Assembly: GCA_021802055.1 (NCBI GenBank)
Contig: JAKAAY010000001.1
Coordinates: forward strand, 1 to 64,000
Reading direction: 5' to 3'
Source: Thermoplasmata archaeon
GTDB lineage: Archaea > Thermoplasmatota > Thermoplasmata > Thermoplasmatales > Thermoplasmataceae
DNA: 64,000 nt
The first letter of the stretch is position 1, and each line of letters begins with the position of its first letter. Under the pieces are notes generated by a model. That model was not told where the DNA came from. It saw only the letters and a program-made list of their open reading frames with translations, and searched no databases. The position numbers and the translations under genes were made by a program. Below, one piece after another: positions 10,409 to 37,820 of this stretch.

Positions 10409-11026
10409 TCAGGATTTCTGCTTCTCACCCGTTATTTTCTTGATCAGGTCGTCGATCTCCTTGTCACCCGCGGCTTCGGATGACTTCTGGGAAGATTCCA
10501 TTGCCTGAACAGATTGGCCCGTGACTTCCTTCACTATGTCCTCGGCTGAAACACCACCACGGGACGCAAATTCCTGGAGTGATTCGCCAAGTGTGCTGAA
10601 CTGTTCCTCCAGCCTGGTTTCTAGGTTTTCCGTGCTTTCGTTAATGGAGCGCAGGTTGTTCTCTATCTCCCTTGCCTGTTCATCGGTGAGCATGCGCTTG
10701 CCGAGGTCAGTGTGTGCCTCAGACAGGGTCCTGTTGATCTCCCTCTCATTGTACACAAATTCAAACGTGATTTCAAGGTTGTCAAGGTAAAGCGAAAAAC
10801 TCCTGAGGTAATCAATTGCGCTTTTGATCCTTTTGGCGTTCTGTGCTGCGTTGAGCACACCCCTGTTGTCCTTGATGGCGGCGGCGGACTTCAGGTTGTT
10901 TATTGCCTGGTTCAGAAGCTGCTGCTGCTTCTTCAGGTTTCTGTCCACCTGGGCCTTATATCCCCTGATCTTGCTTCTAGTCTCGAACCTCTTGTCATCT
11001 TCCGACTTTCGTAGCTTGATACTCAT
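10409..11026 (-). CDS. ESCRT-III/Snf7-like helical protein with C-terminal MIM-like tail
   Basis: A 205-residue protein. A basic N-terminus is followed by a long helical hairpin (about 20-95), then shorter acidic helices (about 98-150), a flexible stretch and a final short helix DDLIKKITGEK (192-202). Basic hairpin first, acidic helices second and a tail helix last is the layout of Snf7/CHMP and CdvB subunits, which form membrane-bending filaments. The tail matches the MIM1 pattern only in part (L194, K197, I198). It has its own promoter (11055-11067) and lies 127 bases after the previous gene of the cluster. Assignment rests on layout and neighbours, not on a recognised signature. Confidence 0.6.
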   Translation of the reverse strand: MSIKLRKSEDDKRFETRSKIRGYKAQVDRNLKKQQQLLNQAINNLKSAAAIKDNRGVLNAAQNAKRIKSAIDYLRSFSLYLDNLEITFEFVYNEREINRTLSEAHTDLGKRMLTDEQAREIENNLRSINESTENLETRLEEQFSTLGESLQEFASRGGVSAEDIVKEVTGQSVQAMESSQKSSEAAGDKEIDDLIKKITGEKQKS

Positions 11027-11054
11027 TTTACCGCAGTTGTAGCAACCGTTATTC

Positions 11055-11067
11055 CTTAATTAAATAT
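11055..11067 (-). promoter_or_regulatory. TATA-box promoter of the 10409-11026 gene
   Basis: On the minus strand the run ATATTTAATTAAG is centred about 35 bases before ATG 11026. Transcription would begin about 10 bases before the start codon. It separates this gene from the operon that ends at 11153. Confidence 0.45.
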
Positions 11068-11152
11068 TCCTCATGTTTACCTGACATGCCTGATACTGCC
11101 TGGGCTGAAAGCCTGCAGAAGGTCCGTTAGCACATATCAGTGCACGTTTTCA

Positions 11153-11731
11153 TCACTCTTTCTCGTCAGTCTCGCCAAGTTTGCGGAGCCTCTCCTTGAG
11201 TTTATCTTCCAGGTCGCTGAGGTCTTTCCCGGTCTTTGATGGATCTGATACCTGCGTCTTGCTGGTTTCCTGGTGTTCGGGAAATGTTGTTCCCACGTCC
11301 TCAAGAAAACCACTGAAGAGATCCCCGATTCGCTCGCTCTGGTTCTTCGCCTTTTCGAGCTCCCCCTCAACTGTGGACATCCACGAAGGTCTTATCTTGC
11401 TTCCAGAGAAAGTCCTGACAAACGTTTCCATGGCATCGGAAAAGCTCGACAGGACTGAGGACTGATCCTTCATCATTTCCATGTCGGATACAATGAGGAG
11501 AAACGACCTGATCTTCTGGGCCTCCGTCTTCAGGGAATTGGATTTCTCCTGGAAGACTTTGAAAAGCGGCTCGTTGTGTATCTGGGCTGCGTCAGCCGCT
11601 TTTTTGTCGTATGTTGCAGCAATGGCGTCACATTTGGAGGCGTATTGCTGAGCTTTGTTCTTGAGCATCTGTATGCGAATCCCTGACTCGGCTTCCGCTT
11701 CCTCCCTTGATCTCTTGTCAAAGAGCTTCAT
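11153..11731 (-). CDS. ESCRT-III-like helical protein with near-consensus MIM1 tail
   Basis: A 192-residue protein beginning MKLFDKR, similar to the short amphipathic start of CHMP proteins. Helices span about 10-45, 50-90 and 95-140, then comes a disordered linker (about 145-170). The last helix contains EDKLKERLRKLG at 175-186. This fits the eukaryotic MIM1 consensus (D/E)xxLxxRLxxL(K/R) at E175, L178, R181, L182 and L185; only the final K/R is Gly. MIM1 is the peptide that Vps4-type MIT domains bind, and an MIT-like ATPase is encoded in the same operon. The start overlaps the stop of the upstream gene (ATGA at 11731-11728). The ESCRT-III call is an inference, strengthened by this motif. 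Confidence 0.65.
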   Translation of the reverse strand: MKLFDKRSREEAEAESGIRIQMLKNKAQQYASKCDAIAATYDKKAADAAQIHNEPLFKVFQEKSNSLKTEAQKIRSFLLIVSDMEMMKDQSSVLSSFSDAMETFVRTFSGSKIRPSWMSTVEGELEKAKNQSERIGDLFSGFLEDVGTTFPEHQETSKTQVSDPSKTGKDLSDLEDKLKERLRKLGETDEKE

Positions 11732-12372
11732 GATAGTATCACCCCCTCATCGTCTTCCTCCTCTTCCTTGCGGTTTCCGTCTACTGCTTTAATCCCGGCT
11801 TCATTTGAAGCATGAGAAGCTTCGGAATAGCGTACCGAACCCGGTGATCTTCTAGCTTCAACATAGACCTCCAGAGTCTCCAGGGACCGCTTCATCCTGA
11901 GCTCAGATTCCATACTCTCCCTTGTGGACTCCTTGAACTGATCAAGATTTTTCTTCTTGAGGACCCTGTCAATGTTTTTCAGCAGCTTCTGGCCATTCAC
12001 CATTTCCTGCAGGGATACCAGAGTGGAAAGGAACCTGTACCTGAGCTGGAGTTCGTCCATGCCTTTCTTCTTTGCTTCTATCATATCCATTGCACTCTGG
12101 AGCTTGACCTTTGCCAGAGTGTCTTCCTGGCCGCTGTACCTTTTCGATTCGCCCTCCAGTCGCTCAATTTCATCCTTAGCCATTTCCAGCATTACGTAGG
12201 TGTCCTGCATGGATTTTCTCAGGATCCTGGCGCCCCGCTTCCCCAAGTACTTCTTGCTGCCGAACGACTTCCACATGGACATCAGTGTCTCTATCCATTC
12301 CGTCTTGAAGTCTGAGGACGGAGAATTTGCCATGAGCTTATCCATCACGCTACTACGTGAAATATTCCACAC
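11728..12372 (-). CDS. Coiled-coil protein of the ESCRT-like operon, family unknown
   Basis: This is a 214-residue, strongly charged, mostly helical protein. Helices at about 22-75 and 80-125 could form the long hairpin of an ESCRT-III subunit. The end (EEEEDDEGVILS) is acidic and probably disordered, with no MIM pattern that I can see. The frame starts at GTG 12372, 11 bases after the ATPase stop; ATG 12345 is an alternative and would remove nine residues. It is translationally coupled to the MIM1 protein downstream. Function is inferred only from operon position between the Vps4-like ATPase and an ESCRT-III-like protein. Confidence 0.6.
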   Translation of the reverse strand: MWNISRSSVMDKLMANSPSSDFKTEWIETLMSMWKSFGSKKYLGKRGARILRKSMQDTYVMLEMAKDEIERLEGESKRYSGQEDTLAKVKLQSAMDMIEAKKKGMDELQLRYRFLSTLVSLQEMVNGQKLLKNIDRVLKKKNLDQFKESTRESMESELRMKRSLETLEVYVEARRSPGSVRYSEASHASNEAGIKAVDGNRKEEEEDDEGVILS

Positions 12373-12383
12373 CCCCGGTGATT

Positions 12384-13568
12384 TCAGTTGCCTGCATATT
12401 GCTCCTTCCAGTCCTGATATCTTTCCAGCATGCCCCTGTCGGCAACAGGCTTTACCTTTTCAAGAGCCGCATCAAAGTCAGCCTGCGTGATCTTGCCCAC
12501 CTGATACTTCAGCTCTCCGGATCCGGGAGGTGTGACTGAATCACTCCTGTCAATGGCATCCCTGTTCGTTCTTCTCAGCATGTGCCATATTGCTTCCGAA
12601 CAGAGGAATGCAAGGTCCCTTCCTGAAAAATTCACTGTGGACTCGGAAAGCACGGACAGATCCAACCCGACCTCAAAGCCCTTATCGACCGTGTTTATCC
12701 TCAGGATCTTCTCCCTGGTCTTAGCATCCGGAAGGCCTACGTATATCTTCTTTTCGAACCTTGAGAGTATTGCTGTGTCCAGCTTCCACGGGACATTGGT
12801 GGCTGCAACGGTCATCACGAAATTGTCACCAGTGCCAAAGCCGTCAAGCTGGCTCAGGAATTGCTGTACAACGGAGGAGGAAGTTGAGTTCCCGTTGTCC
12901 CTGCTCAGAACCAGGTTCTCAACCTCGTCCAGGAATATGATGGAGGGCGATCTCGCTCTGGCCGTTTCGTAAAGGGCCCCCACAAGTCTTTCAGAGTCTC
13001 CCACGTATCTGGAAACAAGTTCTTTTCCATTAGCATTGAAAAAGGTGGCATCTATGTTTGCCGACATGGCCTTGGCAAGAGAGGTTTTACCTGTTCCGGG
13101 CGGTCCAAACAGCAGCATGTTCCTCAGTTTTGGCACCTTGACGTTAGCTGATGGTGTCGCCCGGGCAAAGAAGAATGCTTCCCTTATGAGTGCCTTTTCC
13201 TCATCGAGTCCCCCTATTTCCGACCATTTTGTGTCTGCAGTTGAGATCAGAGATTCAATCCTGGACCTGAACTCATTTTCCATCTTGTCTATGAGGCCGC
13301 TGTCGTTCTTTGTCTTCTGGGTTGACCGGGACATTCTCTCATTACTCCCGAGAGAAGCTTTTTTCTTCACCCATTCCTCCTTTATCTCGAGATATCTTTC
13401 CCTGTCGGATGCGTCCAGATCTGCCAGAAGCTTGAGTTCACCTATTATGGTGTCGCACAGGGCCGATGCCTTTTTCATATCACCGCCTGATTCAGCGTCT
13501 GATACTTTCTTAATATTTTCGCCTATGAGCTTTCTGAGGTTGTCGATGGTAAGGTAGTCTGCGCTCAA
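12384..13568 (-). CDS. MIT-like domain plus AAA ATPase, closest of the three to Vps4/CdvC
   Basis: A 394-residue ATPase with a helical MIT-like N-terminus (about 5-70), a linker, then an AAA domain introduced by KWSEIGGLDEEK. Walker A is GPPGTGKT at 155-162 and Walker B is IFLDE at 211-215. Pore loop 1 SRYVGDSERLV is close to the Vps4 KWxGESEKLV, and SRFEKKIYVGLP (269-280) corresponds to Vps4 RRFEKRIYIPLP. The C-terminal VKPVADRGMLERYQDW matches the terminal helix of Vps4. These are hallmarks of the ATPase that disassembles ESCRT-III filaments. It starts at TTG 13568, six bases after the stop of the upstream coiled-coil gene. No CdvA-type gene is nearby. Confidence 0.82.
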   Translation of the reverse strand: MSADYLTIDNLRKLIGENIKKVSDAESGGDMKKASALCDTIIGELKLLADLDASDRERYLEIKEEWVKKKASLGSNERMSRSTQKTKNDSGLIDKMENEFRSRIESLISTADTKWSEIGGLDEEKALIREAFFFARATPSANVKVPKLRNMLLFGPPGTGKTSLAKAMSANIDATFFNANGKELVSRYVGDSERLVGALYETARARSPSIIFLDEVENLVLSRDNGNSTSSSVVQQFLSQLDGFGTGDNFVMTVAATNVPWKLDTAILSRFEKKIYVGLPDAKTREKILRINTVDKGFEVGLDLSVLSESTVNFSGRDLAFLCSEAIWHMLRRTNRDAIDRSDSVTPPGSGELKYQVGKITQADFDAALEKVKPVADRGMLERYQDWKEQYAGN

Positions 13569-21412: not shown

Positions 21413-21853
21413 ATGGCAAGAATGCATTCCAGAAAGAGAGGCAAATCAGGTTCGCATAAAGATTATACTGAGGATCCAAGGAAGTTCGTTACACATTCAG
21501 ACACCGAAATAGTCGATACTTTGGTTGCGCTTAAGAAGGACGGATTGACCAAATCGCAGATCGGCATAAAGCTCAGAGATCAGTACGGTGTAGCCAGCAC
21601 CAAGGCAATCCTGGGAAAGAAGGTGGGTGAGATACTTAAGGAAAATGGGCTCCAGGACCAGGTACCTGAGGACCTTATGCACCTTATTAAAAAATACCAG
21701 AATGCAAGCAGGCACAACGCAATAAATACAAAGGACAGGGCAAGCATAAGGAGTGCCGCTCTCATCATGAGTAAAATACTCAGGCTGGTTAGGTACTATA
21801 AATCCAATGGATACATTCCCAGAGAATGGAACCTTGACAAAGTAATAAGATAG
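21413..21853 (+). CDS. rps15: Ribosomal protein uS15
   Basis: A 146-residue small-subunit protein. It opens MARMHSRKRGKSGS as archaeal and eukaryotic S15 does, with the extra N-terminal domain, and has the core SRHNAINTKDRASIRSA and the ending IPREWNLDKVIR region. It binds 16S rRNA in the central domain. Its stop codon directly touches the start of the RecJ-like gene, so the two are one operon. Confidence 0.97.
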   Translation: MARMHSRKRGKSGSHKDYTEDPRKFVTHSDTEIVDTLVALKKDGLTKSQIGIKLRDQYGVASTKAILGKKVGEILKENGLQDQVPEDLMHLIKKYQNASRHNAINTKDRASIRSAALIMSKILRLVRYYKSNGYIPREWNLDKVIR

Positions 21854-23206
21854 ATGCTGGCTGAAATCCTTGATCCTGCTTTCCTGGATGCCCTGCATTC
21901 TGCGGCTGAAAAGATCAGGGGAGAGAGCGAATTCAGAATTATAGCGCACTATGATGGCGACGGTACCAGCGCAGGAATCATACTGGCCAGGGCTCTTCTG
22001 AAGTTATCAAAGAGATTTCATCTCGGATACATCAAGAATCTTGGAGCGGATTCCTTCAGGGACAGGATACAGGAAGAGAAGGACCTCCCTACCATCATTG
22101 TGGATGCTGGTTCCGATCAGTTAAGATTCGTTCCCGATGTTCAGGACATCATTGTGCTTGACCATCATTTTTACCAGAAGTCCAGTTCAAAGGCACTCAA
22201 CATAAATGCCAGAGATTATGATATTGACGGCACCAGAGAAGCCTGTGGATCCACTATGGCTTACTTAATGGCTCTAACGCTAGATGACCATAACAGCGAT
22301 CTCTTTCCGTTCTTCCTTGCCGGAGTCATAGCAGATAAGCAGGATATAGGGGGGCTGAGAGGCCTCAACGGAAAACTTGAGGAAGCTTATGGTTCGAAGT
22401 ACCAGAAGGTGCACTCACTGAACCTTGAGGGAGAGAATCTCCTGGACGCACTATCATATTCAACTGACCCATTCTTTAATAACATCTCCGGAAACAGTGA
22501 AAACAGTAAAAAGCTGCTGAGGGAGACCGGTATTGAGATTTCCAAGCCACCACTTGATCTTACAGAAGATGAGAAGAGAATCCTTGCCAGAAAGCTTTCC
22601 TTCAGCATGGTGAGCCAGGGCGTAAGCAGCGAGGCGTTGAAATATCTGGAGTCTGATGTTTACAGGTTCCCGACATATGGGTTTTCGTCCAAGGAGATCA
22701 GTTCTATTATTGACGGAAACGCGAAGATTGACAAAAACTCAGTTGCCGTGCAGTACTTCCTGGGGGACCGGAGGGTAAAGAAGGAATGCATGGACAATTG
22801 GAAGATCTTCAAGAGCAAACTCATTGACTACTCCTACAGATCCCTCAAAGAGATGTTTCAGGAGACAAACCTGAGGTACTTTTATGCCCCTGAGTCAGAG
22901 ATGGCAGGTGCTATCAGCGGGCTTCTCATGCTTTACCTTCTTCCCCAGGATAAGCCAGTCATAGGATTCAGCGTAAGTGATGGCACTGCAAAGGTTTCAG
23001 GGAGAGGTACCAGAAAACAGGTTGAGAAAGGCTTGAATCTATCCGTTGTTCTCAAGAATGCTGCCCAATCCGTTGGCGGAGAAGGCGGAGGGCATGATAT
23101 TGCTGCAGGAGCCAGTATACCATCTGAAAAGGTGAAGCAGTTCCTTGAGGTTGCAAATTCAATTGTCCGAGAGCAGCTTCCCTCTTCTGGATCACGCACG
23201 GACTGA
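21854..23206 (+). CDS. DHH-family RecJ-like single-strand exonuclease
   Basis: A 450-residue protein of the archaeal RecJ/GAN group. Motif I is HYDGDGTSAG (32-41, with D34 and D36) and motif III is LDHH near residue 100. The DHHA1 part ends with VGGEGGGHDIAAGASIP. Members degrade single-stranded DNA or RNA, and some bind the replicative helicase as Cdc45-like partners (GAN with GINS). It begins immediately after the S15 stop. Confidence 0.92.
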   Translation: MLAEILDPAFLDALHSAAEKIRGESEFRIIAHYDGDGTSAGIILARALLKLSKRFHLGYIKNLGADSFRDRIQEEKDLPTIIVDAGSDQLRFVPDVQDIIVLDHHFYQKSSSKALNINARDYDIDGTREACGSTMAYLMALTLDDHNSDLFPFFLAGVIADKQDIGGLRGLNGKLEEAYGSKYQKVHSLNLEGENLLDALSYSTDPFFNNISGNSENSKKLLRETGIEISKPPLDLTEDEKRILARKLSFSMVSQGVSSEALKYLESDVYRFPTYGFSSKEISSIIDGNAKIDKNSVAVQYFLGDRRVKKECMDNWKIFKSKLIDYSYRSLKEMFQETNLRYFYAPESEMAGAISGLLMLYLLPQDKPVIGFSVSDGTAKVSGRGTRKQVEKGLNLSVVLKNAAQSVGGEGGGHDIAAGASIPSEKVKQFLEVANSIVREQLPSSGSRTD

Positions 23207-23221
23207 AATTTCTGGCTCATT

Positions 23222-23899
23222 ATGAAAAAGATTATGCATAATGCAGCCATTATAGAATGGATGCATCGGTTGGGAATCTTTACCTCCGACTTCAGGTTCT
23301 ACCATGATGCCGTCAAATTGTTGAAGGAATGGTCTCTGCCTTTTGAAAGCCTGGAGTCAAGGGAGTCGGTCCCCGGTGATGTTCTTGCGGTTCTGACCTC
23401 TGAAAGGGATGAGTTCGAGGTTGAGAAGCAGGTCAGGGGGGCCAATGCTCTTCAGGCACTGCGCAGGTCTTTACCCAGACTGGTTGGAAAAACAGTCTTT
23501 GCAAGAATAGTCATAGGCATAGATCCTGGACCGAAGCCTGGTGTCGCGGTTGTATGCGACGGTGTTGTATCAGAAGCCCTGGAGATCTCAGCTCTGAGCG
23601 TTCTTCCTGATTACATCTCTGGCGTTCTGGCAGATTATCCTTACATTGACCTTTTTGCAATGGTGGGCAATGGTGACAAGCCAAACCGTGACGTGATTGT
23701 TGAATCTATGCGCAAGCTGGGGGTTAGAGTGATCATTGTGGATGAAAGGAGCACCACCATTCCCCACAAGAGAGAGAATAACGCCCTTTCTGCAGCAATA
23801 ATAGCCATGGCCCAGGACAGGAAATATGACCCCAGAGCGAGGGGGAGAGAACTTTCCAACGTAGAAAAGAAGTTCGTGACCTTCAGGGCCGTTCTTTAG
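23222..23899 (+). CDS. RuvC/YqgF-like RNase H-fold protein, predicted nuclease
   Basis: The protein has 225 residues. The N-terminal 90 form an unassigned domain. From 96 comes an RNase H-like core: IVIGIDPGPKPGVAVV (D101 in the first strand), a later VDERSTT (acidic residue of the second motif), and ENNALSAAIIAM in the final helix, where RuvC-type enzymes usually have Asp. The last acid appears replaced by Asn, so activity is uncertain. It follows the RecJ-like gene by 15 bases and is probably co-transcribed, which suggests nucleic-acid repair or processing. Confidence 0.7.
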   Translation: MKKIMHNAAIIEWMHRLGIFTSDFRFYHDAVKLLKEWSLPFESLESRESVPGDVLAVLTSERDEFEVEKQVRGANALQALRRSLPRLVGKTVFARIVIGIDPGPKPGVAVVCDGVVSEALEISALSVLPDYISGVLADYPYIDLFAMVGNGDKPNRDVIVESMRKLGVRVIIVDERSTTIPHKRENNALSAAIIAMAQDRKYDPRARGRELSNVEKKFVTFRAVL

Positions 23900-23908
23900 A
23901 CCACAATA

Positions 23909-24724
23909 CTACTTTTTCCACTTTGGTTTCCGTGGAAGATTTCTTGGCCTGGAGCCCGCAATAAGTACCATGAACGCCATGAAGGCAACCACGGCGGCAG
24001 CCACGTAATAAATCCATGTGAAGTCCGGAGGAGTACCATAATAGAACTGAGAACTGTAGGATGTCTGCCCGTCAACCTTAGCAGAGGGGTTGTTCACAAG
24101 TATGCTGAGGGTATGCGTTCCAGTGGAAAGCTGGGGAGGAATGACTTCTATGCTCACCTGTGTGCTCGAATAAGGAGCGATCTTCGCCACCACTTTGGTG
24201 CCGAGAGAGACACCGTCGATCTCAAAATTGACCGTGGTATTCCTTATGGGAATTCCAGAGGGGTTTGATATAAGTGCATTGAGAGTCATGGGGTACATAA
24301 CCTGAATGCTCACGCTGGCCGTTGCGTTAACATAGCCATTGGTGCCAGATGCCTGGGCCTCAGCAAAAATGGTTACTGTGCCATTGGAGTTTGGCATTAC
24401 GATTGACTGATTGAAATTACCCGCTGTTGCATTATAAAAATGATAATACGGCTGCGGTCCTAGCCCTGAAAGATTGTAACCAGAAATGAATATTGTCAGA
24501 CTGTAGTTGGTGAATCCATATGTCAGATTTGCGAATAATGTGATGTTCTGGCCAAAATACGCTCTAGTAGGGCTCGAAAGGTGGAGATTAAATATATTTG
24601 GGGTAAGTGCTGCGGGCTGCGAAGCTGTTGAATCGGCGTGATTATAATCCACAACTGGCGTGGAATATGTAACCAGAAGCATTGCGGCGATGAGTAGCAG
24701 AATAAATCCTGCAATCCACTTCAA
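23909..24724 (-). CDS. Membrane-anchored extracellular beta protein coupled to AglB
   Basis: A 271-residue protein. A hydrophobic signal/anchor (about 5-20) is followed by an exported beta-rich region (about 45-235) with many N-x-S/T sites and Ig-like strands, then a transmembrane helix (about 240-260) and a basic cytoplasmic tail RPRNLPRKPKWKK. Its ATG overlaps the AglB stop (ATGA, 24724-24721), so it is translated with AglB. It may assist or be a product of the glycosylation machinery. No family is recognised. Confidence 0.65.
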   Translation of the reverse strand: MKWIAGFILLLIAAMLLVTYSTPVVDYNHADSTASQPAALTPNIFNLHLSSPTRAYFGQNITLFANLTYGFTNYSLTIFISGYNLSGLGPQPYYHFYNATAGNFNQSIVMPNSNGTVTIFAEAQASGTNGYVNATASVSIQVMYPMTLNALISNPSGIPIRNTTVNFEIDGVSLGTKVVAKIAPYSSTQVSIEVIPPQLSTGTHTLSILVNNPSAKVDGQTSYSSQFYYGTPPDFTWIYYVAAAVVAFMAFMVLIAGSRPRNLPRKPKWKK

Positions 24725-27700
24725 CGGTTCCTCCTCCCCCTAATTGAAGCGGCAATAAGACCAGCTATCACCGCTGCAGCGATTATCACAACGCCTATGA
24801 TAAGCGAATCGTATGGGTTACCAGTATAGTTTGCAAGTACTGAACTGCCGCCAGGATAGGGTTTTATCACTGGAGGAGGCGCATAGCTCGGCGTAAGTGT
24901 GAGATGTATCCAACCGCCCTTGTAATAGCCTGAGATTGCGATCGAGGGGATATTTTGAGGCTTGGAGGTGTTCGGATACATCTGTAGATACAGGTCCAAT
25001 GAGGAGTTTCCATTCACGGAAACGTTTGTCACTTTTGAGCCCAGGTAGTAGAAGCTGAAGGACCAGGACTCGTTATCCACAACTGAAGTGTTGGCAAAAA
25101 GGCTTACGTTGACCAGAGAATTGCCGCTGTTCTTGATGGTGAAAGGTACCAGGATGCTCTCGTTTGTGGGAACACCATATGTGTTGATCGAGGTCAACGA
25201 GGCAGAATAGAATGGATTAACCGTAATGTTAAGCACCTCCTTGACCGAGCCCTGTGAATAGTTCATGAAGAATGGTACTGCGTTGAGGCCCGATGGGGCG
25301 CCGTGTGGGACATTCAGAGTAACGTTGACATTCTTCCAAACCCCCGGTTGGATGTACACACTGCCTGGATCAAAACTCATGGCCCAGGAAGAATTAGCCG
25401 TGCCAAACGTGAGGTTCACGGGACTCAGCCCCCTATTCGTCACATTGAAGGTATAATTCACCTGGGAGGTAACATTAGCAGTTGCAACCTTACTCAACTG
25501 CTTGAAGTTCAGGTTGTACTGGTTTGAAAGGGTCAGTGAAATGACAATGGATCCGTTCTTTCCTACGTAAGTATAGTAGGTCGAGTTATAATAGGCTGTT
25601 TTATTGCCGCCGGGATAAGGCATACTACTCTTGACCGAGCTCGTAAAATTGTACGTCCCAGATGGCAGCAACAGGGAACTCTGCGTCGTGTTAAACTGGT
25701 ACTTGGTGGTATTGGTACTGATTATCACGTCAGTATTCAGGATGGTCATATTCTTTACTACAGACAGATCTACAGTGTATGCCCGGACAAGTTGCACGTT
25801 GTAATTGTATTTGCCTGTGACAGGCACGCTAACGTTGACGAAGTCTCCGACTCCTGTAAGGTTGTTAAACGCATACAGGATATTGTTTCCAGGCGATACA
25901 TAGACCGTGTAGTTTCCTGCCGAATTAGAATTTGAATAGTTCAGAACATTGCCTGTCTGACCTATCACCTCAACCTTTGTGAATCCCTGAGGGCTGTTCA
26001 GGAAACTGGTACTGCCATATAGTTCCACATACACGTTGGTGAGGGTGCTGCTCACCTTGACAGAAAGACTGCTGGATGAAATGTTGAAATGCTGTGAGCC
26101 GGAAGCGACAAAGGTTCCGGAGGAATTGCTCAAGAGATAGTTGTAAACTACAGCGTAGGATCCAACGGGGAGATTGTAACTGCCCTGAGTCAAGTTGATT
26201 GATATTGAACCGGAAGTTAGCCTGTATGTTCCCTCAGATAATCCAAGAGAATTGCTGAATTTCACGAAATAGGAGGTCTGGAAGTTTACTGTGAAAGACG
26301 CGTTCTCAAAAATATAAATCTCAGTAAGGTTTGAACCGCCGCTGCCGGATGCGTACAGATAGTAATTGCCCGTAGGCACTGAGTTATAGTTTTGAACCAT
26401 TGTCCCGTTGGTGTAAAAGAGTTTGGAGTTGAGACTTCCGATAACGTTAATGGAAGAATAGGTTATCACATTGAGATAAGCAGTTCCATTACTAGCTGTA
26501 GGTATTGTAAGTATGCTGTAAGTCGGTTTGACTTTGGCCGAAGGGCTTGTGATATTTACCCAATAGGAACCGGGCATTATTGAGCCTCTTGCAACACCAC
26601 TTGATATGGTCAGATTGTAATGAATGCTGCCTGACAGTTCCAGTTCTCCATTCAGTGGAATTGCGTTTCCATTTGATTCCAGGTTAAATGTCACGTTTTT
26701 TACCTTTGGTTGGACAGGAATATCCTGCACGAAACTGCTGAGGCTGGAATATTGTACACCGACCGTGGTTTTATCATAGGCAGTAGATATTGTAGTTGCT
26801 GAAGTAGAGCCGTTTGCGAAGTCCGGGTAGAAGAGTGTTGCCGTACCGTTCACGTTTGTAACGCTATAATAGAGAGGGATGCTGTAACTTGAAGCCTCCA
26901 CTATTGCCCCCACGACGGCAGACTTCGAATTTAACCCCTGATACACGTTGGGGTTGTAGAGCCCTACAGTCGTAGCTTCTTGAACACCCATCAAGAGTTT
27001 CAGTGTCCTTTCGCTTACAAGGGTAAGCTGGGTGAAATTATAGTACAACTTGCCAACGGATATTCCACTTGCAGAAATGTAATATGTTCCACTTGGCAGT
27101 GAAATATTCCATGTTCCATTTGTCCCAAACCCGTAGCTCAAAAGTGTGTTGGAGGATATGATTTCATAGGTTCCAGAGAAAGTGATGTTGGTCGAAATCG
27201 CACCGCTTATGCTCAGATTGTAGCTGGGTGAAGGAGTTATGGAAAGAGTTGTGTCGTTCGTAAGCTGTATAGTGCTTGCATATGCCATATCACCTTGACT
27301 GAAATAGATCGTGTAAACGCCCACAGGTACCACTGTATTGAAATTACCACTGGGGGAGATTGCGGCCGTCAGTTGATAGTTGACATTTCCATTGCTGTAC
27401 AGATACAGTGTTCCCGGCGCATTAACACCAAGAACATGCCCCGTGAGCTTAACGGACATTTCAGGGGTCAGATTCAAGCTGTTGTTGAGGTTCCAGGTTG
27501 GAAAATCAACGGTTATAAATTGAGTGGAGGTGTTTGACCCAATTCCCTGCACTGTGTACTTCCCGGGCGTCACCCAGATGCTGGATGATCCGTTGAAGTT
27601 GGTTAAATTTGAGAACACCTGTCCGTGGCCGCTTGCAGTGATCTTGTAGCCTTGAAGCCTGTTTCCATTGTATGATACATTCATGTATAATGAGTCAAAC

Positions 27701-30700
27701 TCTATGTTAAGGTCCTGAGTAATTGCACCCCCTGTACTCATGTCTACCGTTGAGATATCTTTGTAGTAGGTGCCGTTAACCAAAACACTCGCGTTGAAGA
27801 CAGTAGGCGGAACATTACTCAGTTGATAGACTCCGTTAACAAGCTGTGCAGATATGTTAAGTCCCGTAGAGGAGTTGGTAAAGAATATCTGGGCATTTTC
27901 TATTCTCTTGTCAAAAACTGGAACTGCTCCTTTTGCGTTGGGAACCTTTGAAAGCTGGTACTGGTAGCTGAGAGTCCCCTTGAGCAGGTCAGGCTTCAAA
28001 ACGTAATTCTGGACAATGTAATAGCTGGGGAGACCGGTGGTTGAGTTGTAAGAAGTGGCAATCCGCTCAGCCTGCTGATTGGAAACTTTAACTTTCAGGT
28101 ACTGAATGGAAGTGCTTCCGCTAAGGAATATCTTGTTAAATGCCCCATGACTGATCAGAATCGTATCGTTGCCAGGGACCGCAGTCAGGTTGTAGTATCC
28201 CTGGGCATTGGTTGTGGTAAAATCATGGGGTATGCCATACTGATCCAGCAGCGTAACATATAAACCAGGAGCCGGGTTATTGGGGCCCTGGGTAACCCTT
28301 CCAGTTATTGTCGCTCCAGGATAATAGGAGATTATAGTGTCTTCCCCGTTAACCACCTGTGAAGTTGGCGGGAAAATCTCCGTTGTGCCGATGTTATTTT
28401 TCTGGTAATAATATGCCTGTTGAAGAGAAATCACTTTCCAGGCATTGGGATATTTTGTGTAATTGTGATGAGGGTTCCATGGTACGCCTATGTACGAGAG
28501 CTCGAAGTGACTGAGATTCCACGCTGGCATGATGGTATATTTTGAGGCGCCAAAAGTCAGTCCCGGAATTCCACTGGTATTACCGGTTGCCTGCGGAGGA
28601 TAGCCCACCATCATCCTGTATATGGTCGTGTTGTAGAATGCGGGGTTGTACTGTATAGTATACCCTAGTGGCTGGGCAGCGGAAGGGGTCTGATTCAGCG
28701 GAAACGTTCCGTTGGCCGTCTGAGCAAATATCTGGTAATACTGGTATGGAACAACCTCTCCGTTGGCCGTATATGAAGGCTTGTCGGTCAGATAAGTTGG
28801 AGCATAAAAGATGCCAGGATTATCACCCGAACTCGGGAAAAGGGCATGATCTATGCCTATATATTTGATGGAATAACCTGTTTCTATTCCAAACTGTAAA
28901 TATGCATTGACAAGGGTAGAAATTGGGAAGTTGGATGACAGGATGCCAGAATAGAGAGCAAAATAGGCGTTGGTTGGAGTGATCCCCTTTATAAACGTTC
29001 CGAAGACGCCGGGGTTGCTGAAAATCATATACTGGTAACTTGAAGGATTCTTAAGAATGGCCAAAAGAAGGGCCGCATAATGAGGGCCAAAATACTGATA
29101 CATGGTAGCATTTACGCTTGCAGGCAATTGGCCTCCATTGTTGACATATGCTCCCTGGATTACCCTTGCCATAAACAGAGATATGATCTGGCTCTGATTC
29201 TGCGCAAGTAATACCTGCCCTGCCACCTCGTATCCTTGCTGGAAGTCATCTGCTACTGTCGGGTGCTGTCCCTGAGAAATTTCCTGAAATCCGTAGTCCC
29301 ACCAAGAGACAAACGCTGGTCGCTGATCTATGGGGAGATTTGTGTCCTGTGTCGAAAGCCATGAGAAAGCGGCTGCGCTTGGCTGTGAAGCATTGGATAT
29401 CCCGAATCCGTAGGACCCGACGAACTGACCGCTGGATGATGAATAATTATACGGGCGAAGGAAACTTGGAAGACTGTTATATATCTGATCATTTACAGAA
29501 TTTGCATTATTGTTAGGAACAGCTGCCGCAATTGTTGTGAATGCTGAAGGGATTATCAGAAGGACTACAACGATTGCGACCAGAAGCGCCTGAACCCCTT
29601 TCGCGCTGCCTTTGATGGCGCCTTTTATTCCAGACGTGGGAATGTGTTTTCTGTTCTTGATCTCGCTTATTTTGAGGAGTCTTCCAAAGTATCCGAGCAA
29701 CGCTGCCCCTAGAACGGCATACGCGGGGGCCGCTGTCACGTTGAACCTTGCGGCTGCAAAGCTCATGTATATGGATACAAGACTGAAAAGCAGGATGAAC
29801 AGTATGCCATCCTTTTTCTCCTTGAAATAAAGATAGATAACATAAGCAAGTCCAGATAGCCCCAGAAGAAACTGGGCCGGCCCGAAACCAGATATGTACT
29901 GGCCAAGGGGAGGAGAAGCGGCTTCCGCTATTGTCGCGTAAACTCTTGTCTTGATGAAATATCCCTCTCCACTGATTATTGAATTGAGAAGACCGGGGTC
30001 AAGCAATTTGAGCCCCCCCACAAGAATTAAAACCAGAACGGCGAGTGAGGGAATTGATATTATCCATGGGAAGTCCTCAGCAAATGCCATAAGGATTCCA
30101 AAAGCCACGATACCAAGCGCGAGATAAATGGCCGGATATAGCCAAGCCGAGGCGTTGCCTAGGCCCACATAATAATACGAGCCCAGCAGAAATCCCATGC
30201 CTGCGAACGCAATATAGTGATAAGTTACATATTGTGTGGACTTCTTGGTAAAAATATTTACTATGAACTGGACAAAAGCGTATATAACAATGATTGCGAG
30301 GATGTAAGCGTATCCCTGCCACGAAAGCATAAGCGCGCCGAAACTTGCGCCCGCCAGCAAGCTGTAAACAGTAGAACTCCGGTTCTGGTAAAAATAGTTC
30401 ATAACGTAGGACGGGTACATCCGAAATGCGAATTTTTTCAGTATAATTTTCTTCTTCTGGGTCGTGTTTATTGCTTTTAGGAAAAAGTAGATTGTTAGGA
30501 AAGCAAAGAAGAGTTCAGGGGTATGCATTCTCCCATCCGAAAGAATTCCTGATGACAGGTTGCTAGGCATCAGAGTGTATAAAATTGCAGTAAGCAACCC
30601 TACCTTCGTTCCGAACACTTCCTTTCCAAGAAGATAAACAGGAATTATCAGAAGAGCGCCGAAAACCGCGTCAAACTCTAGGAATGCGTAAGTCGCCCCA

Positions 30701-31035
30701 CTTAACGGGTTCATGAAAGGTGAGAGTATTACAGCTACCAGGACGATAAGCACATGGAAAAATGGTGGTCTAGGGTTCGTCGCTCCAAGCGGATAGTTCA
30801 GCGCCGCGTCATGGGTCATCCAGTGGCCAGTGGTAAGCATATACTGGATAACCCTGAAGTTGTAGTAGGGATCGCTTCCCCCTGAAACGTTGAGGGTTCC
30901 GTTTGTGAAAGTCACACTGTATGCAAAATAGTTGCCGAGGAATAGATAAATTATCACCAAAAGGGTGATGACGATTATCTCCGGGTTAATCCTAAGAAAA
31001 TCAAGTAGCCTGTTTGCACTGTCGAATCTGCTCAT
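24721..31035 (-). CDS. aglB: AglB/STT3 oligosaccharyltransferase with very large extracellular C-terminus
   Basis: This 2104-residue protein is the catalytic enzyme for N-glycosylation. Residues about 18-500 contain the multi-pass STT3 membrane core, with the acidic motif DPYYNFR at 55-61. The hallmark WWDYG is at 578-582. After the usual catalytic domain (to about 900) comes a chain of beta domains: a carboxypeptidase-regulatory-like domain near 915-970 (ITGRVTQG to YYNLTAVPG), many similar repeats, CARDB-like domains near 1830-2060, and a final transmembrane helix (about 2077-2097) ending GRRNR. Archaeal AglB proteins are normally about 600-1000 residues, so about 1100 are extra. A TATA-like TTTTTTATAG lies about 40 bases upstream. 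Confidence 0.93.
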   Translation of the reverse strand: MSRFDSANRLLDFLRINPEIIVITLLVIIYLFLGNYFAYSVTFTNGTLNVSGGSDPYYNFRVIQYMLTTGHWMTHDAALNYPLGATNPRPPFFHVLIVLVAVILSPFMNPLSGATYAFLEFDAVFGALLIIPVYLLGKEVFGTKVGLLTAILYTLMPSNLSSGILSDGRMHTPELFFAFLTIYFFLKAINTTQKKKIILKKFAFRMYPSYVMNYFYQNRSSTVYSLLAGASFGALMLSWQGYAYILAIIVIYAFVQFIVNIFTKKSTQYVTYHYIAFAGMGFLLGSYYYVGLGNASAWLYPAIYLALGIVAFGILMAFAEDFPWIISIPSLAVLVLILVGGLKLLDPGLLNSIISGEGYFIKTRVYATIAEAASPPLGQYISGFGPAQFLLGLSGLAYVIYLYFKEKKDGILFILLFSLVSIYMSFAAARFNVTAAPAYAVLGAALLGYFGRLLKISEIKNRKHIPTSGIKGAIKGSAKGVQALLVAIVVVLLIIPSAFTTIAAAVPNNNANSVNDQIYNSLPSFLRPYNYSSSSGQFVGSYGFGISNASQPSAAAFSWLSTQDTNLPIDQRPAFVSWWDYGFQEISQGQHPTVADDFQQGYEVAGQVLLAQNQSQIISLFMARVIQGAYVNNGGQLPASVNATMYQYFGPHYAALLLAILKNPSSYQYMIFSNPGVFGTFIKGITPTNAYFALYSGILSSNFPISTLVNAYLQFGIETGYSIKYIGIDHALFPSSGDNPGIFYAPTYLTDKPSYTANGEVVPYQYYQIFAQTANGTFPLNQTPSAAQPLGYTIQYNPAFYNTTIYRMMVGYPPQATGNTSGIPGLTFGASKYTIMPAWNLSHFELSYIGVPWNPHHNYTKYPNAWKVISLQQAYYYQKNNIGTTEIFPPTSQVVNGEDTIISYYPGATITGRVTQGPNNPAPGLYVTLLDQYGIPHDFTTTNAQGYYNLTAVPGNDTILISHGAFNKIFLSGSTSIQYLKVKVSNQQAERIATSYNSTTGLPSYYIVQNYVLKPDLLKGTLSYQYQLSKVPNAKGAVPVFDKRIENAQIFFTNSSTGLNISAQLVNGVYQLSNVPPTVFNASVLVNGTYYKDISTVDMSTGGAITQDLNIEFDSLYMNVSYNGNRLQGYKITASGHGQVFSNLTNFNGSSSIWVTPGKYTVQGIGSNTSTQFITVDFPTWNLNNSLNLTPEMSVKLTGHVLGVNAPGTLYLYSNGNVNYQLTAAISPSGNFNTVVPVGVYTIYFSQGDMAYASTIQLTNDTTLSITPSPSYNLSISGAISTNITFSGTYEIISSNTLLSYGFGTNGTWNISLPSGTYYISASGISVGKLYYNFTQLTLVSERTLKLLMGVQEATTVGLYNPNVYQGLNSKSAVVGAIVEASSYSIPLYYSVTNVNGTATLFYPDFANGSTSATTISTAYDKTTVGVQYSSLSSFVQDIPVQPKVKNVTFNLESNGNAIPLNGELELSGSIHYNLTISSGVARGSIMPGSYWVNITSPSAKVKPTYSILTIPTASNGTAYLNVITYSSINVIGSLNSKLFYTNGTMVQNYNSVPTGNYYLYASGSGGSNLTEIYIFENASFTVNFQTSYFVKFSNSLGLSEGTYRLTSGSISINLTQGSYNLPVGSYAVVYNYLLSNSSGTFVASGSQHFNISSSSLSVKVSSTLTNVYVELYGSTSFLNSPQGFTKVEVIGQTGNVLNYSNSNSAGNYTVYVSPGNNILYAFNNLTGVGDFVNVSVPVTGKYNYNVQLVRAYTVDLSVVKNMTILNTDVIISTNTTKYQFNTTQSSLLLPSGTYNFTSSVKSSMPYPGGNKTAYYNSTYYTYVGKNGSIVISLTLSNQYNLNFKQLSKVATANVTSQVNYTFNVTNRGLSPVNLTFGTANSSWAMSFDPGSVYIQPGVWKNVNVTLNVPHGAPSGLNAVPFFMNYSQGSVKEVLNITVNPFYSASLTSINTYGVPTNESILVPFTIKNSGNSLVNVSLFANTSVVDNESWSFSFYYLGSKVTNVSVNGNSSLDLYLQMYPNTSKPQNIPSIAISGYYKGGWIHLTLTPSYAPPPVIKPYPGGSSVLANYTGNPYDSLIIGVVIIAAAVIAGLIAASIRGRRNR

Positions 31036-34706: not shown

Positions 34707-37700
34707 ATGTTCGAGAATAACTTCCTTTCAATTGGCAGATTTGCAGAAAGAAATCGAAAAAAGATTGTGATCTTCTGGATTGCCCTATTTCTTTTAATGG
34801 TCCCCTTTGCAGGCAGCTTTTTTAACAATGTAAGTTACGATCTTGCATCGGGAATAGTTCCCGCAAATTCTCAGTCAAATATTGCGCAGAATTATGTGAA
34901 TAAATATTTTCCTTCAACCAATGGCAGTTCCGGAAATAGCTCACTTGTGATCGTAACCAGCGGCACCAGCATAATAAACAACACCCCCCAACTCGTTCAG
35001 CTTCAGGACTCACTTGTAAAGGGTCTACAGGGCAGCAATTATGATTACATTTCTGTTGAAAGTATTTTCACTGTTGAAAAGGGCATACTAAGGCAATTTT
35101 CCCTTGTGCTCTACAATGAGACTAATGGTACCGATGCTGCCCTGGGATCAATAAACAGCCAAATCTATCTTCTTAACGCTTCCCTCAACCAGACCTCATC
35201 AATAGTCTTTGGTTTACCATTATTTTACTTATCCAATTTTTCAAAGGAATTTCAGATCACTGGTAATTTCAATCAGAGCCGTAATTCAGCATACAATACT
35301 ACTATTGTACCTGCCTCTGCCATTCCCGCCGTTGGAACGTTTCAACTCGGCTCCAGTTATGTGAACAATTTCTCAAAGATTTGGAATACAACGTTCAACC
35401 AGACAGACTTCAGCGCCAGCCCCACCGGTTACATGAATTCCATTGTCAATTCAACTGTCACGGGTCCGTGGATGACGAGCCTTGCTGCCGCCAGTTCAAA
35501 CGTTGCAGGTATTTTCTCCCTGCTGGACACCCACATATATCTGGTAAATTATACCAAACAACCGGTTTTTGCCTCCAACCTGTACTCCCTCTCGGTCTCT
35601 CATATCTCTTCTTTCATTGCTTCTAATGCAACGCTGAACAGTTTTATCACGAAATTTCTATTCGTGACGCCAGTTCAGTTTGTTACCACTTCTTATTCGC
35701 TGGGCAAGGATCCAACTAGTCTGTCTGTCGCACTGCAATCACTCACAATGGTCGTCAGTTCCATTTACACATTGCTGGATAGGAATCCACTGGTTCAGCC
35801 AAATCCCAACAGTGCCATCATATACACTTATGCCGAATCCACCTATCTTTCAGGTCAGCCATTGGGTATGGAGATCGACCAGGAACTCAACAGCAGCAAC
35901 ATCTGGAATTATCCCTTCATGCCGACACCCTACGTGATCCATCAGTTCGTGGGCTATGATAATAAAACCACAATCACCGTTCTCCAGTTTGGTAAACCTT
36001 TTGGCATCGACTTTGTGAATCAGGCGGCAAGCATTGCAGACAACTACACTGGCGTCATCCCGGGCAGCAATTATTATGTGGCGGGCTCATCGGCTTTCAG
36101 TTCACAGTTGGGGCAGGAATCCCTTGGAGGTTTGATCACCGCCCTGGGTATTGGTATTTTCCTTTCTGTAATAATAGTCGGTGTGTTCTTCAGGTCACCT
36201 GTTTCTGCGTTTGTGCCGCTGATGATCTTTGGTATGGTCGCAGTCATAGCAATGGGGGCGAACGGCCTTCTTTACACGTACGTGTTCCACTCTGAGGCTT
36301 CGTTCATAACGCCCACTCTGTTGCTCATCCTGCTGTTGGGACTGACAACAGACTATGTTGTTTACATGATGTCCAGGTTCAGAAGAGAGCTCAGAAACGG
36401 GAACGGGGATGCTGTGGCAGAGGCAACTCACTGGTCTGGGCATGCTGTATTCACTTCTGGAATAACAGTGGCCATGTCCTATCTCATCCTCTGGATTGCA
36501 AATGTGCCTTTATTCAGTGATGCTGGAATTACCAACGCTCTTGGAATCACTGTGTCAATACTGGCTGCACAGACATTCCTCGTGGCCCTCTTTGCAATCT
36601 TCAGGGAGAGGCTTTTCTGGCCGTCCAAACCGGCAGAGAGAACCCATGCCCCTTTCGAGAGGGGCATGAAGCGTGTTGGAGAGGCCGTAGTACATAACAA
36701 GGGGAAAATTATCGTTGTCTTCATCGTGGCAACTTTTCTTGCAACCTACGTCTACGCCATCACTCCTGTGGGAATGGATGTATTCAGCCTCCTGCCCAAG
36801 AGCAGCGGCATAGAGGCTATTTCGGTGGTCAATTCTTCCTTCCACGGCGACTTCTTTGAAAGGAATTTCATGGTCGTTAAGCTCCCGTCACCTATTTCTT
36901 CAGGATCTGGGGCAAACATAACTTACAACATGAGCGAGGTGAGTACAGTTACTTCCATAGAAAATGCCCTCCTGCAGAACCATGGGATTTCACAGGTATA
37001 CGGACCAACGCTTCCGTTTGGTTACTATGTGCCCATAAGTCTTGCTGGCATTCCTGCATTGCAGCGTTCCACCTATGAATCTCAGATTGCATCCTACATA
37101 GGCACCAATACCAGCTATGTGGTAATTTATTTCCAGATGGCGAGTCTAGCCTATTCTGGGAATGCGACAGTTTCTGACCTCAATATCCCCTCTGAACTGT
37201 CGTCGGTAAGCACCCCCACTACATATTCATACTATATAGGCGGGCTCACCCAGGGACTTTCAGATTCGAATATCTATGTGCATTCTACATTCTCACTCAT
37301 TGTACCGCTCCTAGCCATTTCCATATTCATAATTCTGCTGATCCAGTTGAGTTCTGTCCTCACGCCCGTGAGACTTATTCTCATGGTGATAGCCACTGTG
37401 GTCATGTCACTGGTCTTCACCTATGCCTTCTTCTATTACCTCCAGCATCTGCCGCTGCTCGTCTTTGTGCCGCTGTTTACCTTTATCACACTGCTGGCCG
37501 TGGGCCTGGATTACGATATCTTCATGATCACAAGGGCCAGGGAAGAGGTCATGAAGGGGAAGGACTCCAGAGAGGCTATAAAGACAAGCATATCTGAGAA
37601 TGGAGGGGTGATTATCACACTCGGTACAATCCTGTTCGTAACCTTCTTTGCTCTTAATTTCAGCGGCATTGCCATCATTCAGGAAATTGGCCTTGGTGTC

Positions 37701-37820
37701 GCAATGGGAGTGCTGTTTGACACCTTGATAAGCTGGCCGTTTTTTGTGCCTGCAGTGATGCTGTACCTGGAAAGGTTCAACTGGTGGCCGTCCAAAATGT
37801 CGAAGAAGCGGATAAACTAG
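34707..37820 (+). CDS. MMPL/RND superfamily membrane transporter
   Basis: A 1037-residue transporter built of two similar halves, each with one leading membrane helix, a large extracellular domain and a five-helix bundle. The membrane helix 4 motifs are LLGLTTDYVVYMMSRFRREL in the first half and LLAVGLDYDIFMITRAREE in the second, with the proton-relay Asp of the MMPL family. Relatives move lipids or hydrophobic compounds out of the membrane. Substrate unknown; archaeal homologues are often annotated as predicted exporters. It is a single gene. Confidence 0.92.
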   Translation: MFENNFLSIGRFAERNRKKIVIFWIALFLLMVPFAGSFFNNVSYDLASGIVPANSQSNIAQNYVNKYFPSTNGSSGNSSLVIVTSGTSIINNTPQLVQLQDSLVKGLQGSNYDYISVESIFTVEKGILRQFSLVLYNETNGTDAALGSINSQIYLLNASLNQTSSIVFGLPLFYLSNFSKEFQITGNFNQSRNSAYNTTIVPASAIPAVGTFQLGSSYVNNFSKIWNTTFNQTDFSASPTGYMNSIVNSTVTGPWMTSLAAASSNVAGIFSLLDTHIYLVNYTKQPVFASNLYSLSVSHISSFIASNATLNSFITKFLFVTPVQFVTTSYSLGKDPTSLSVALQSLTMVVSSIYTLLDRNPLVQPNPNSAIIYTYAESTYLSGQPLGMEIDQELNSSNIWNYPFMPTPYVIHQFVGYDNKTTITVLQFGKPFGIDFVNQAASIADNYTGVIPGSNYYVAGSSAFSSQLGQESLGGLITALGIGIFLSVIIVGVFFRSPVSAFVPLMIFGMVAVIAMGANGLLYTYVFHSEASFITPTLLLILLLGLTTDYVVYMMSRFRRELRNGNGDAVAEATHWSGHAVFTSGITVAMSYLILWIANVPLFSDAGITNALGITVSILAAQTFLVALFAIFRERLFWPSKPAERTHAPFERGMKRVGEAVVHNKGKIIVVFIVATFLATYVYAITPVGMDVFSLLPKSSGIEAISVVNSSFHGDFFERNFMVVKLPSPISSGSGANITYNMSEVSTVTSIENALLQNHGISQVYGPTLPFGYYVPISLAGIPALQRSTYESQIASYIGTNTSYVVIYFQMASLAYSGNATVSDLNIPSELSSVSTPTTYSYYIGGLTQGLSDSNIYVHSTFSLIVPLLAISIFIILLIQLSSVLTPVRLILMVIATVVMSLVFTYAFFYYLQHLPLLVFVPLFTFITLLAVGLDYDIFMITRAREEVMKGKDSREAIKTSISENGGVIITLGTILFVTFFALNFSGIAIIQEIGLGVAMGVLFDTLISWPFFVPAVMLYLERFNWWPSKMSKKRIN

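Follow-up and report, generated by a model that had tools for sequence, protein, structure and literature searches.

A giant tail on archaeal AglB and its coupled partner gene in Thermoplasmata: a possible extracytoplasmic scaffold fused to an oligosaccharyltransferase

Excerpts of the literature, to which all statements here about cited papers refer, describe archaeal AglB as a single-subunit oligosaccharyltransferase (OST) (PMC8342417), and Thermoplasmatales genomes are reported to carry it (PMC3750248, PMC5155288). Solved AglB and STT3 full chains are 705-935 aa long, and the Archaeoglobus fulgidus enzyme (3waj/5gmy) is a chain of 875 residues. We analyzed the AglB gene of a Thermoplasmata archaeon of the order Thermoplasmatales, which lies in a stretch of 64,000 nucleotides (the window; assembly GCA_021802055.1, contig JAKAAY010000001.1, positions 1 to 64,000). 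Its core is like A. fulgidus AglB over profile positions 12-635 and carries the TIxE and WWDYG motifs. The window AglB departs from the single-subunit enzyme in having 1200 more residues, a second membrane anchor and a coupled partner gene, and A. fulgidus AglB is under half its length.

Two other systems invite comparison. NOMO, a 134-kDa protein with 12 prealbumin/immunoglobulin-like (Ig-like) domains and one membrane helix, belongs to the BOS complex of the endoplasmic reticulum multipass translocon, and the Ig-like domains of TRAP alpha and beta lie on the outside, with the cytosolic end of TRAP alpha anchoring on ribosomal RNA (PMC11186639, PMC11169918). The tail of the window AglB resembles NOMO in build, having 11 prealbumin-like repeats, two other domains and one helix. 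NOMO, however, is a separate polypeptide that occurs with nicalin and TMEM147, whereas the tail is fused to AglB and is therefore not filed as NOMO; we use NOMO as a functional analogy rather than a family assignment. The partner shares outside Ig-like domains with TRAP alpha and beta, and also has one helix and a basic end. Surface proteins with CARDB or carboxypeptidase-regulatory-like repeats have the same domain superfamilies as the tail and partner, but the tail differs from them in that its length is fixed across a class. To our knowledge, such repeats are not known as part of an enzyme of the AglB kind. The reading that we favor, and to which we give an even chance, is that an extracytoplasmic scaffold, NOMO-like in build, is fused to the OST and forms one assembly with the partner.

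The long tail and the coupled partner gene

The features of the locus, by window position, are as follows.
24721..31035, minus strand: AglB (oligosaccharyltransferase) with a giant tail, 2104 aa, a single unbroken ATG frame
28324..31035, minus strand: membrane and catalytic core, residues 1-904, from profile matches
29923..29934, minus strand: TIAE motif, residues 368-371
29290..29304, minus strand: WWDYG motif, residues 578-582
29191..29199, minus strand: conserved sequon N613-Q-S in the catalytic ectodomain
25522..28323, minus strand: predicted tail domains d1-d11, residues 905-1838, transthyretin/carboxypeptidase-regulatory-like repeats (profile comparison, Pfam, AlphaFold2)
24874..25521, minus strand: predicted tail domains d12-d13, residues 1839-2054, a second beta type
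24733..24822, minus strand: predicted C-terminal membrane helix, residues 2072-2101, then a basic end (hydropathy, AlphaFold2)
24730..24740, minus strand: purine run GGGGGAGGAGG ahead of the partner start, putatively Shine-Dalgarno-like in function
24721..24724, minus strand: 4-nt overlap TTGA, with the partner start TTG on the AglB stop TGA
23909..24724, minus strand: partner protein, 271 aa, with an N-terminal signal-like helix, two Ig-like domains (the second being CARDB), a C-terminal membrane helix and a basic end (Pfam, AlphaFold2, locus comparison)
23912..23926, minus strand: partner C-terminal PKWKK, predicted to be cytosolic

The normal OST core described in the initial annotation was borne out. 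The STT3 membrane domain (PF02516) matched residues 52-481 at 46.4 bits, over a cut-off of 24.5, and TIGR04154 matched partially (residues 21-618, 200.9 bits, below that model's 450-bit cut-off); both motifs of the AglB/STT3 family, TIxE and WWDYG, are present. In alignment A1, a set of 28 aligned relatives of the window AglB used for motif conservation, WWDYG is invariant (28/28 rows), as are the T and E of TIAE, with I in 26/28. The likely place of the DK/MI motif, assigned without alignment to a solved AglB, is D729-xx-L/M-F-P, which is without the lysine (D in 26/28 rows; L in 25 and M in 3). Chance or an assembly artefact was ruled out by the recurrence of the frame and architecture in dozens of genomes, some of them single-contig.

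The tail extends from residue 905 (nt 28323) to the stop at 24721, approximately 1200 aa, just as the first annotation had placed it. When a 54-row tail alignment was cut into 13 segments, with boundaries that we chose, and the segments were compared by hidden Markov model profile to profile (HMM-HMM), d1-d11 were largely alike and d12 and d13 paired off separately (98% HMM-HMM probability mutually and at most 63% to d1-d11), giving 11 + 2 repeats. Pfam CarboxypepD_reg matched residues 909-966 at 29.4 bits, slightly below its cut-off of 32.3, and Cep192_D3 matched residues 1852-1907, also below cut-off. The AlphaFold2 model of the window tail, run with relatives, was beta throughout, forming a rod with a final helix (mean predicted local distance difference test score, pLDDT, 85.6; predicted TM-score, pTM, 0.48); at so low a pTM, the packing of domains along the rod is not fixed by the model. 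Hydropathy also placed one membrane helix at the C-terminus (2072-2101). Thus, a long beta-domain tail and a second anchor, both previously proposed, hold up. The proposed carboxypeptidase-regulatory-like repeats likewise belong to the tail, but the CARDB match that exceeds its cut-off lies in the next gene (23909-24724).

The window AglB had been regarded as unusual in size. It is far above the solved chains but normal for its clade, as a length survey of the 109 genomes of the order in which the AglB profile matched found frames of at least 2000 aa in 85 (counted by eye). The reading of unusual size is thereby refuted: the giant tail is a clade trait present in most genomes of the order, including Thermoplasma and Cuniculiplasma (L102, L104, L135), and long tails occur across much of the phylum. 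The window-type profile detected AglB in 109/117 order genomes (PF02516 in 87/117), and 238/250 genomes of the class matched the AglB profile at 1e-20. The other 24 of the 109 order genomes have shorter AglB frames only. Among the named loci, short frames are contig ends, save for E-plasma, where the frame is split and may reflect an assembly error, Acidiplasma, where the shortening is genuine, and L139 and L155, which were left unclassified. Acidiplasma (3/3 genomes; L123-L125, L171-L173) is the one clear exception in the order, with an AglB of 1433-1454 aa. About 680 tail profile positions (~370-1050) are gone in one piece, while both tail ends, the last helix and the partner are kept, making it a natural deletion mutant of the rod middle. 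Outside the class, 14 of 20 loci have frames of 2317-3321 aa (four cut by contig ends), and six have frames of 1157-1427 aa without the last helix. A core tree tracked taxonomy and had three tail-state changes over 66 rows (midpoint root, quick method).

Length is held more closely than sequence. Across 21 sequences of the order, the core measures 909 +/- 5 aa with a mean identity of 44% and the tail 1188 +/- 17 aa with 26%, and alignment occupancy is near 1 over most of the tail. Domain d1 alone among the tail domains is conserved to the level of the core, which suggests that it packs against the catalytic domain.

A partner homologue lies directly downstream of AglB on the same strand in 21/21 order loci and directly behind it in 19/19 class loci with a WWD-bearing AglB (L051-L069), and the exact 4-nt overlap is found in 35 of 41 loci with an adjoining partner. 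Of 64 AglB frames not cut by contig ends among 80 named loci (genomes partly shared with the other counts), 62 have the partner right behind; in L121 (E-plasma) and L139, it does not directly follow the AglB frame. The partner profile, from whose seed L083 was dropped because its match sits in another gene, matched in 113/117 order genomes. The predicted structure has two Ig-like domains (pLDDT 88.7), the second of which matches Pfam CARDB in all 39 members scanned (over cut-off in the window), and a fold search returned generic tandem Ig-like folds. PKW occurs in the last 20 residues in 48/53 rows of alignment A5. We predict a type I topology with the basic end inside, and the partner is a candidate second subunit of AglB.

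It might be argued that the partner is one more ordinary surface protein of the CARDB type, in one operon with AglB but unrelated to it in function, and that chance alone has preserved the tail as a relic subject to drift. Surface proteins of the phylum commonly end in a CARDB domain followed by a membrane helix (many weaker matches), and half of the rod can disappear, as in Acidiplasma. The coupling, however, is unbroken across the whole class despite low sequence identity, the tail length is far too constant for drift, and the tail and partner are retained beside the degenerate AglB proteins described below, so we regard this explanation as very improbable.

The partner profile also matches the AglB C-terminus in 6/20 loci outside the class (L072, L073, L075, L076, L077, L083; E 7e-6 to 5e-11). 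We did not rely on this as a Rosetta-stone fusion of partner and AglB, CARDB plus helix being a common ending there. In L080 and L081, with AglB proteins of 3188 and 3321 aa, the next gene is a frame of about 405 aa with one hydrophobic stretch that by eye resembles a membrane-anchored S8 subtilase. Tail to tail with the AglB-partner pair in the window (21413-23899) are genes that by eye read as ribosomal S15, a DHH phosphoesterase and a RuvC/RNase-H-like protein, and many loci of the same family have frames similar in size and strand after the partner.

N-glycosylation sequons in the tail and elsewhere

The window tail contains 55 sequons in 1104 residues compared with 27.1 expected. The 21 order tails have 1074 N-x-S/T sequons versus 516 expected from shuffling (2.08-fold), and 667 N-x-T versus 282 reversed T-x-N. 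In the same set the catalytic ectodomain is enriched 2.25-fold and the partner 2.22-fold. Other membrane proteins of the window hold 45 sequons versus 22.8 expected, whereas proteins without a membrane helix hold 61 versus 65.4. Given this excess in membrane proteins and its absence from those without a membrane helix, exported proteins of this archaeon appear to be N-glycosylated, with the tail among them and not special. The enrichment in exported proteins gives indirect support to glycan transfer by the window AglB, whose core appears to be that of an ordinary OST. A 1037-aa RND/MMPL-like transporter (by eye) at 34707-37820 has 26 sequons versus 11.6 expected, which fits heavy N-glycosylation of exported proteins. 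The core sequon at N613 is present in 21/21 rows. From residue 956 onward, 14 columns hold a sequon in at least 10 of 21 rows, and N956 is the only one of these with a sequon in 21/21.

One possibility is that the rod, glycosylated by its own enzyme, shields that enzyme and the membrane as a private coat, most of these archaea being without a surface layer (S-layer); it would work by bulk and sugar and bind nothing. The doubled sequon number of the window tail is consistent with such a shield, as are the constancy of tail length while sequence drifts, the two membrane ties and the finding by electron microscopy that Cuniculiplasma is S-layer-deficient (PMC5155288). Against it, the tail is no more enriched than other exported segments, it remains, little enriched, where the AglB motifs have been lost, and a shield leaves unexplained a partner that is coupled by 4 nt and whose cytosolic end is conserved. 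We consider a glycan coat unlikely, although with an appreciable chance of being correct.

The initial annotation had suggested that the tail keeps the enzyme within the surface layer or that it offers acceptor sites. Many tail sequons speak for this suggestion, and one segment of the tail matches SlaB, the S-layer stalk protein of Sulfolobus (8qox_B; Z 9.9 over 222 residues, root-mean-square deviation 22), one among many Ig-like matches. S-layer anchoring is nevertheless weak and was rejected as the main role, since the tail is found in wall-less members such as the S-layer-deficient Cuniculiplasma and both of its ends are tied to the membrane. Acceptor-site display was also rejected: the tail is indeed rich in sequons, but its enrichment matches that of other exported segments, few sites are conserved (only one of the 14 columns in every row) and the tail outlives the catalytic motifs. 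The suggestion as a whole is, in our estimate, very improbable.

Degenerate AglB in a methanogen family

Further evidence on the role of the tail comes from a family of the same class (f11), which we take to be the Methanomethylophilaceae and which carries mcrA in 16/16 genomes examined and is thus methanogenic. The first degenerate case, L070, had been excluded from the initial counts for want of WWD, yet its core, tail and partner profiles all match. Over two batches, the second checked for motifs only, an AglB homologue was found in 32/32 genomes examined. WWDYG and TIxE are absent in 31 of these (for G210, whose gene is cut in two by the record end, the reading covered the WWDYG region only), and G226 (genus g84) is the sole f11 genome with all motifs intact. 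The WWDYG position of the degenerate proteins reads TWIDY, SWIDY, NWIDY, TWFQD, SWFAY and similar, and the first-loop aspartate is retained in a few members. Because the motifs are missing, we call these 31 proteins AglB homologues and not OSTs. In the first 16 genomes, any PF02516 matches were these same loci and no others.

The tail and partner are kept in this family. Apart from the one split by the record end, the degenerate frames of the first batch are intact (1831-2029 aa). The 14 degenerate loci read whole have a tail of 1043 +/- 45 aa and, in every case, a hydrophobic C-terminal helix, and the partner lies 0-39 nt from the AglB stop in 15/15 degenerate loci holding that end. The half gene of G210 (L215) was counted in the sequon sum and excluded from the length figures. 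Another f11 homologue that has lost WWDYG and TIxE (L218, G398) has an open frame of 2555 aa, longer than its relatives.

Sequon enrichment is lower where the motifs are gone. The f11 tails have 204 sequons versus 163 expected (1.25-fold), whereas 19 motif-bearing class tails have 522 versus 246 (2.12-fold; rank test p ~1e-4, relatedness ignored), and the f11 catalytic ectodomain has 32 versus 42 expected, compared with enrichments of 1.42-fold for the 19 class rows and 2.25-fold for the order. We infer from the motif loss that there is no catalysis in f11, and we read the family as having lost N-glycosylation while keeping the assembly. Host-associated Methanomassiliicoccales tend toward fewer glycosyltransferases (PMC9723798); no mention of AglB decay in this group was found in the excerpts of that paper.

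Alternatively, the f11 AglB may still transfer glycans through a rebuilt active site, in which case the tail and partner would always serve glycosylation, for instance by holding substrates. Frames are intact in nine genera, the core is 43% identical within the family, and SWIDY/TWIDY retains the aspartate in some members. TIxE is gone, however, and WWDYG has been broken in several ways (TWFQD, SWFAY, NWIDY); the lack of sequon enrichment in the catalytic ectodomain and, as a tendency, the fewer glycosyltransferases of host-associated Methanomassiliicoccales also argue against an altered enzyme, which we consider quite improbable.

A possible scaffold role for the rod and partner

In the scaffold model, the AglB core would carry a 13-domain beta rod whose beginning is packed on the catalytic domain at d1, and the rod would arch across the outer face of the membrane and return to it through the C-terminal helix. 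The small type I partner, with its two Ig-like domains, one helix and basic cytosolic end, would be made together with AglB and join it in a single assembly outside the cytoplasm. The core would glycosylate exported proteins, the rod and partner included, in most of the phylum, while the rod and partner would most likely hold or order membrane and secreted proteins as they emerge. Such a job would need no catalysis and could therefore survive in f11 without the active-site motifs. Since the assembly outlives those motifs, its role probably extends beyond glycosylating, being glycosylated or offering acceptor sites, and the rod and partner probably do more than glycosylate. The anatomy, the constant length, the coupling of the genes, the sequon enrichment and the retention of tail and partner after motif loss are observed; the scaffold role and the contact between AglB and its partner are the parts of the model that we infer.

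Among PDB sequences, the tail profile matches NOMO best (9c7v_B, 1e-27), and Pfam NOMO_5th matches 18/40 tails. CarboxypepD_reg, however, matches 40/40 and scores better, so the likeness to NOMO may be one of shared repeat type only, and an orthology and colinearity check found the NOMO matches along the tail to be scattered and repeat-driven. The whole-tail fold search gave very low TM-scores, as expected of a flexible repeat protein. For the partner, no OST or TRAP chains (OST1, OST48, OST3/6) were among the best 60 of 245 PDB matches of its profile, a weak search. OST1 and OST3/6 have been reported only from eukaryotes, TACK and Asgard (PMC11417166).

Several observations weigh against the scaffold model. 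The likeness to NOMO is one of sequence only; it weakens from 1e-27 to 1e-12 when a different alignment is used, no stretch exceeds the cut-off by itself, and NOMO was not among the best 50 rows of the whole-tail fold search or the rows listed for the tail-segment search. Acidiplasma persists without about 680 rod positions, which indicates that a large part of the rod is dispensable. Among loci outside the class, the partner adjoins AglB in only 1/20, and 6/20 have short tails lacking the last helix. Two motif-bearing class tails are without sequon enrichment (0.85 and 0.92), the chemistry of the degenerate AglB could have changed rather than been lost, and gene adjacency is no proof of contact between AglB and the partner.

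A more specific version of the scaffold model holds that AglB, rod and partner constitute an archaeal scaffold for membrane-protein biogenesis that carries the OST. On the outside, the rod would take the part that NOMO plays in the endoplasmic reticulum, the basic PKWKK end of the partner would, like the tail of TRAP alpha, dock on the ribosome or the Sec channel, and the f11 proteins would be catalytically dead, pure scaffolds. We view this version as unlikely.

Elsewhere in the window, two AAA-ATPase-like frames (2283-3392 and 10409-13568), with small charged frames beside one of them, resemble by eye a Cdv/ESCRT cluster.

In the open-licence literature searched, on AglB in Thermoplasmata and Methanomassiliicoccales and on NOMO in archaea, we found no description of the tail, of its partner or of AglB in degenerate form, nor an earlier account of AglB and a second gene forming an assembly whose conserved rod persists once the active-site motifs have gone. 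If the partner is a subunit, then a whole class departs from the single-subunit rule for archaeal OSTs (PMC8342417). If f11 does retain a catalytically dead AglB together with rod and partner, then AglB, the best-studied enzyme of N-glycosylation, would have another role besides catalysis, open to direct testing in organisms that have lost the catalytic one. Finally, if a NOMO-like rod is fused to an OST in these archaea, the arrangement would bear on how the eukaryotic translocon joined glycosylation with membrane-protein biogenesis.

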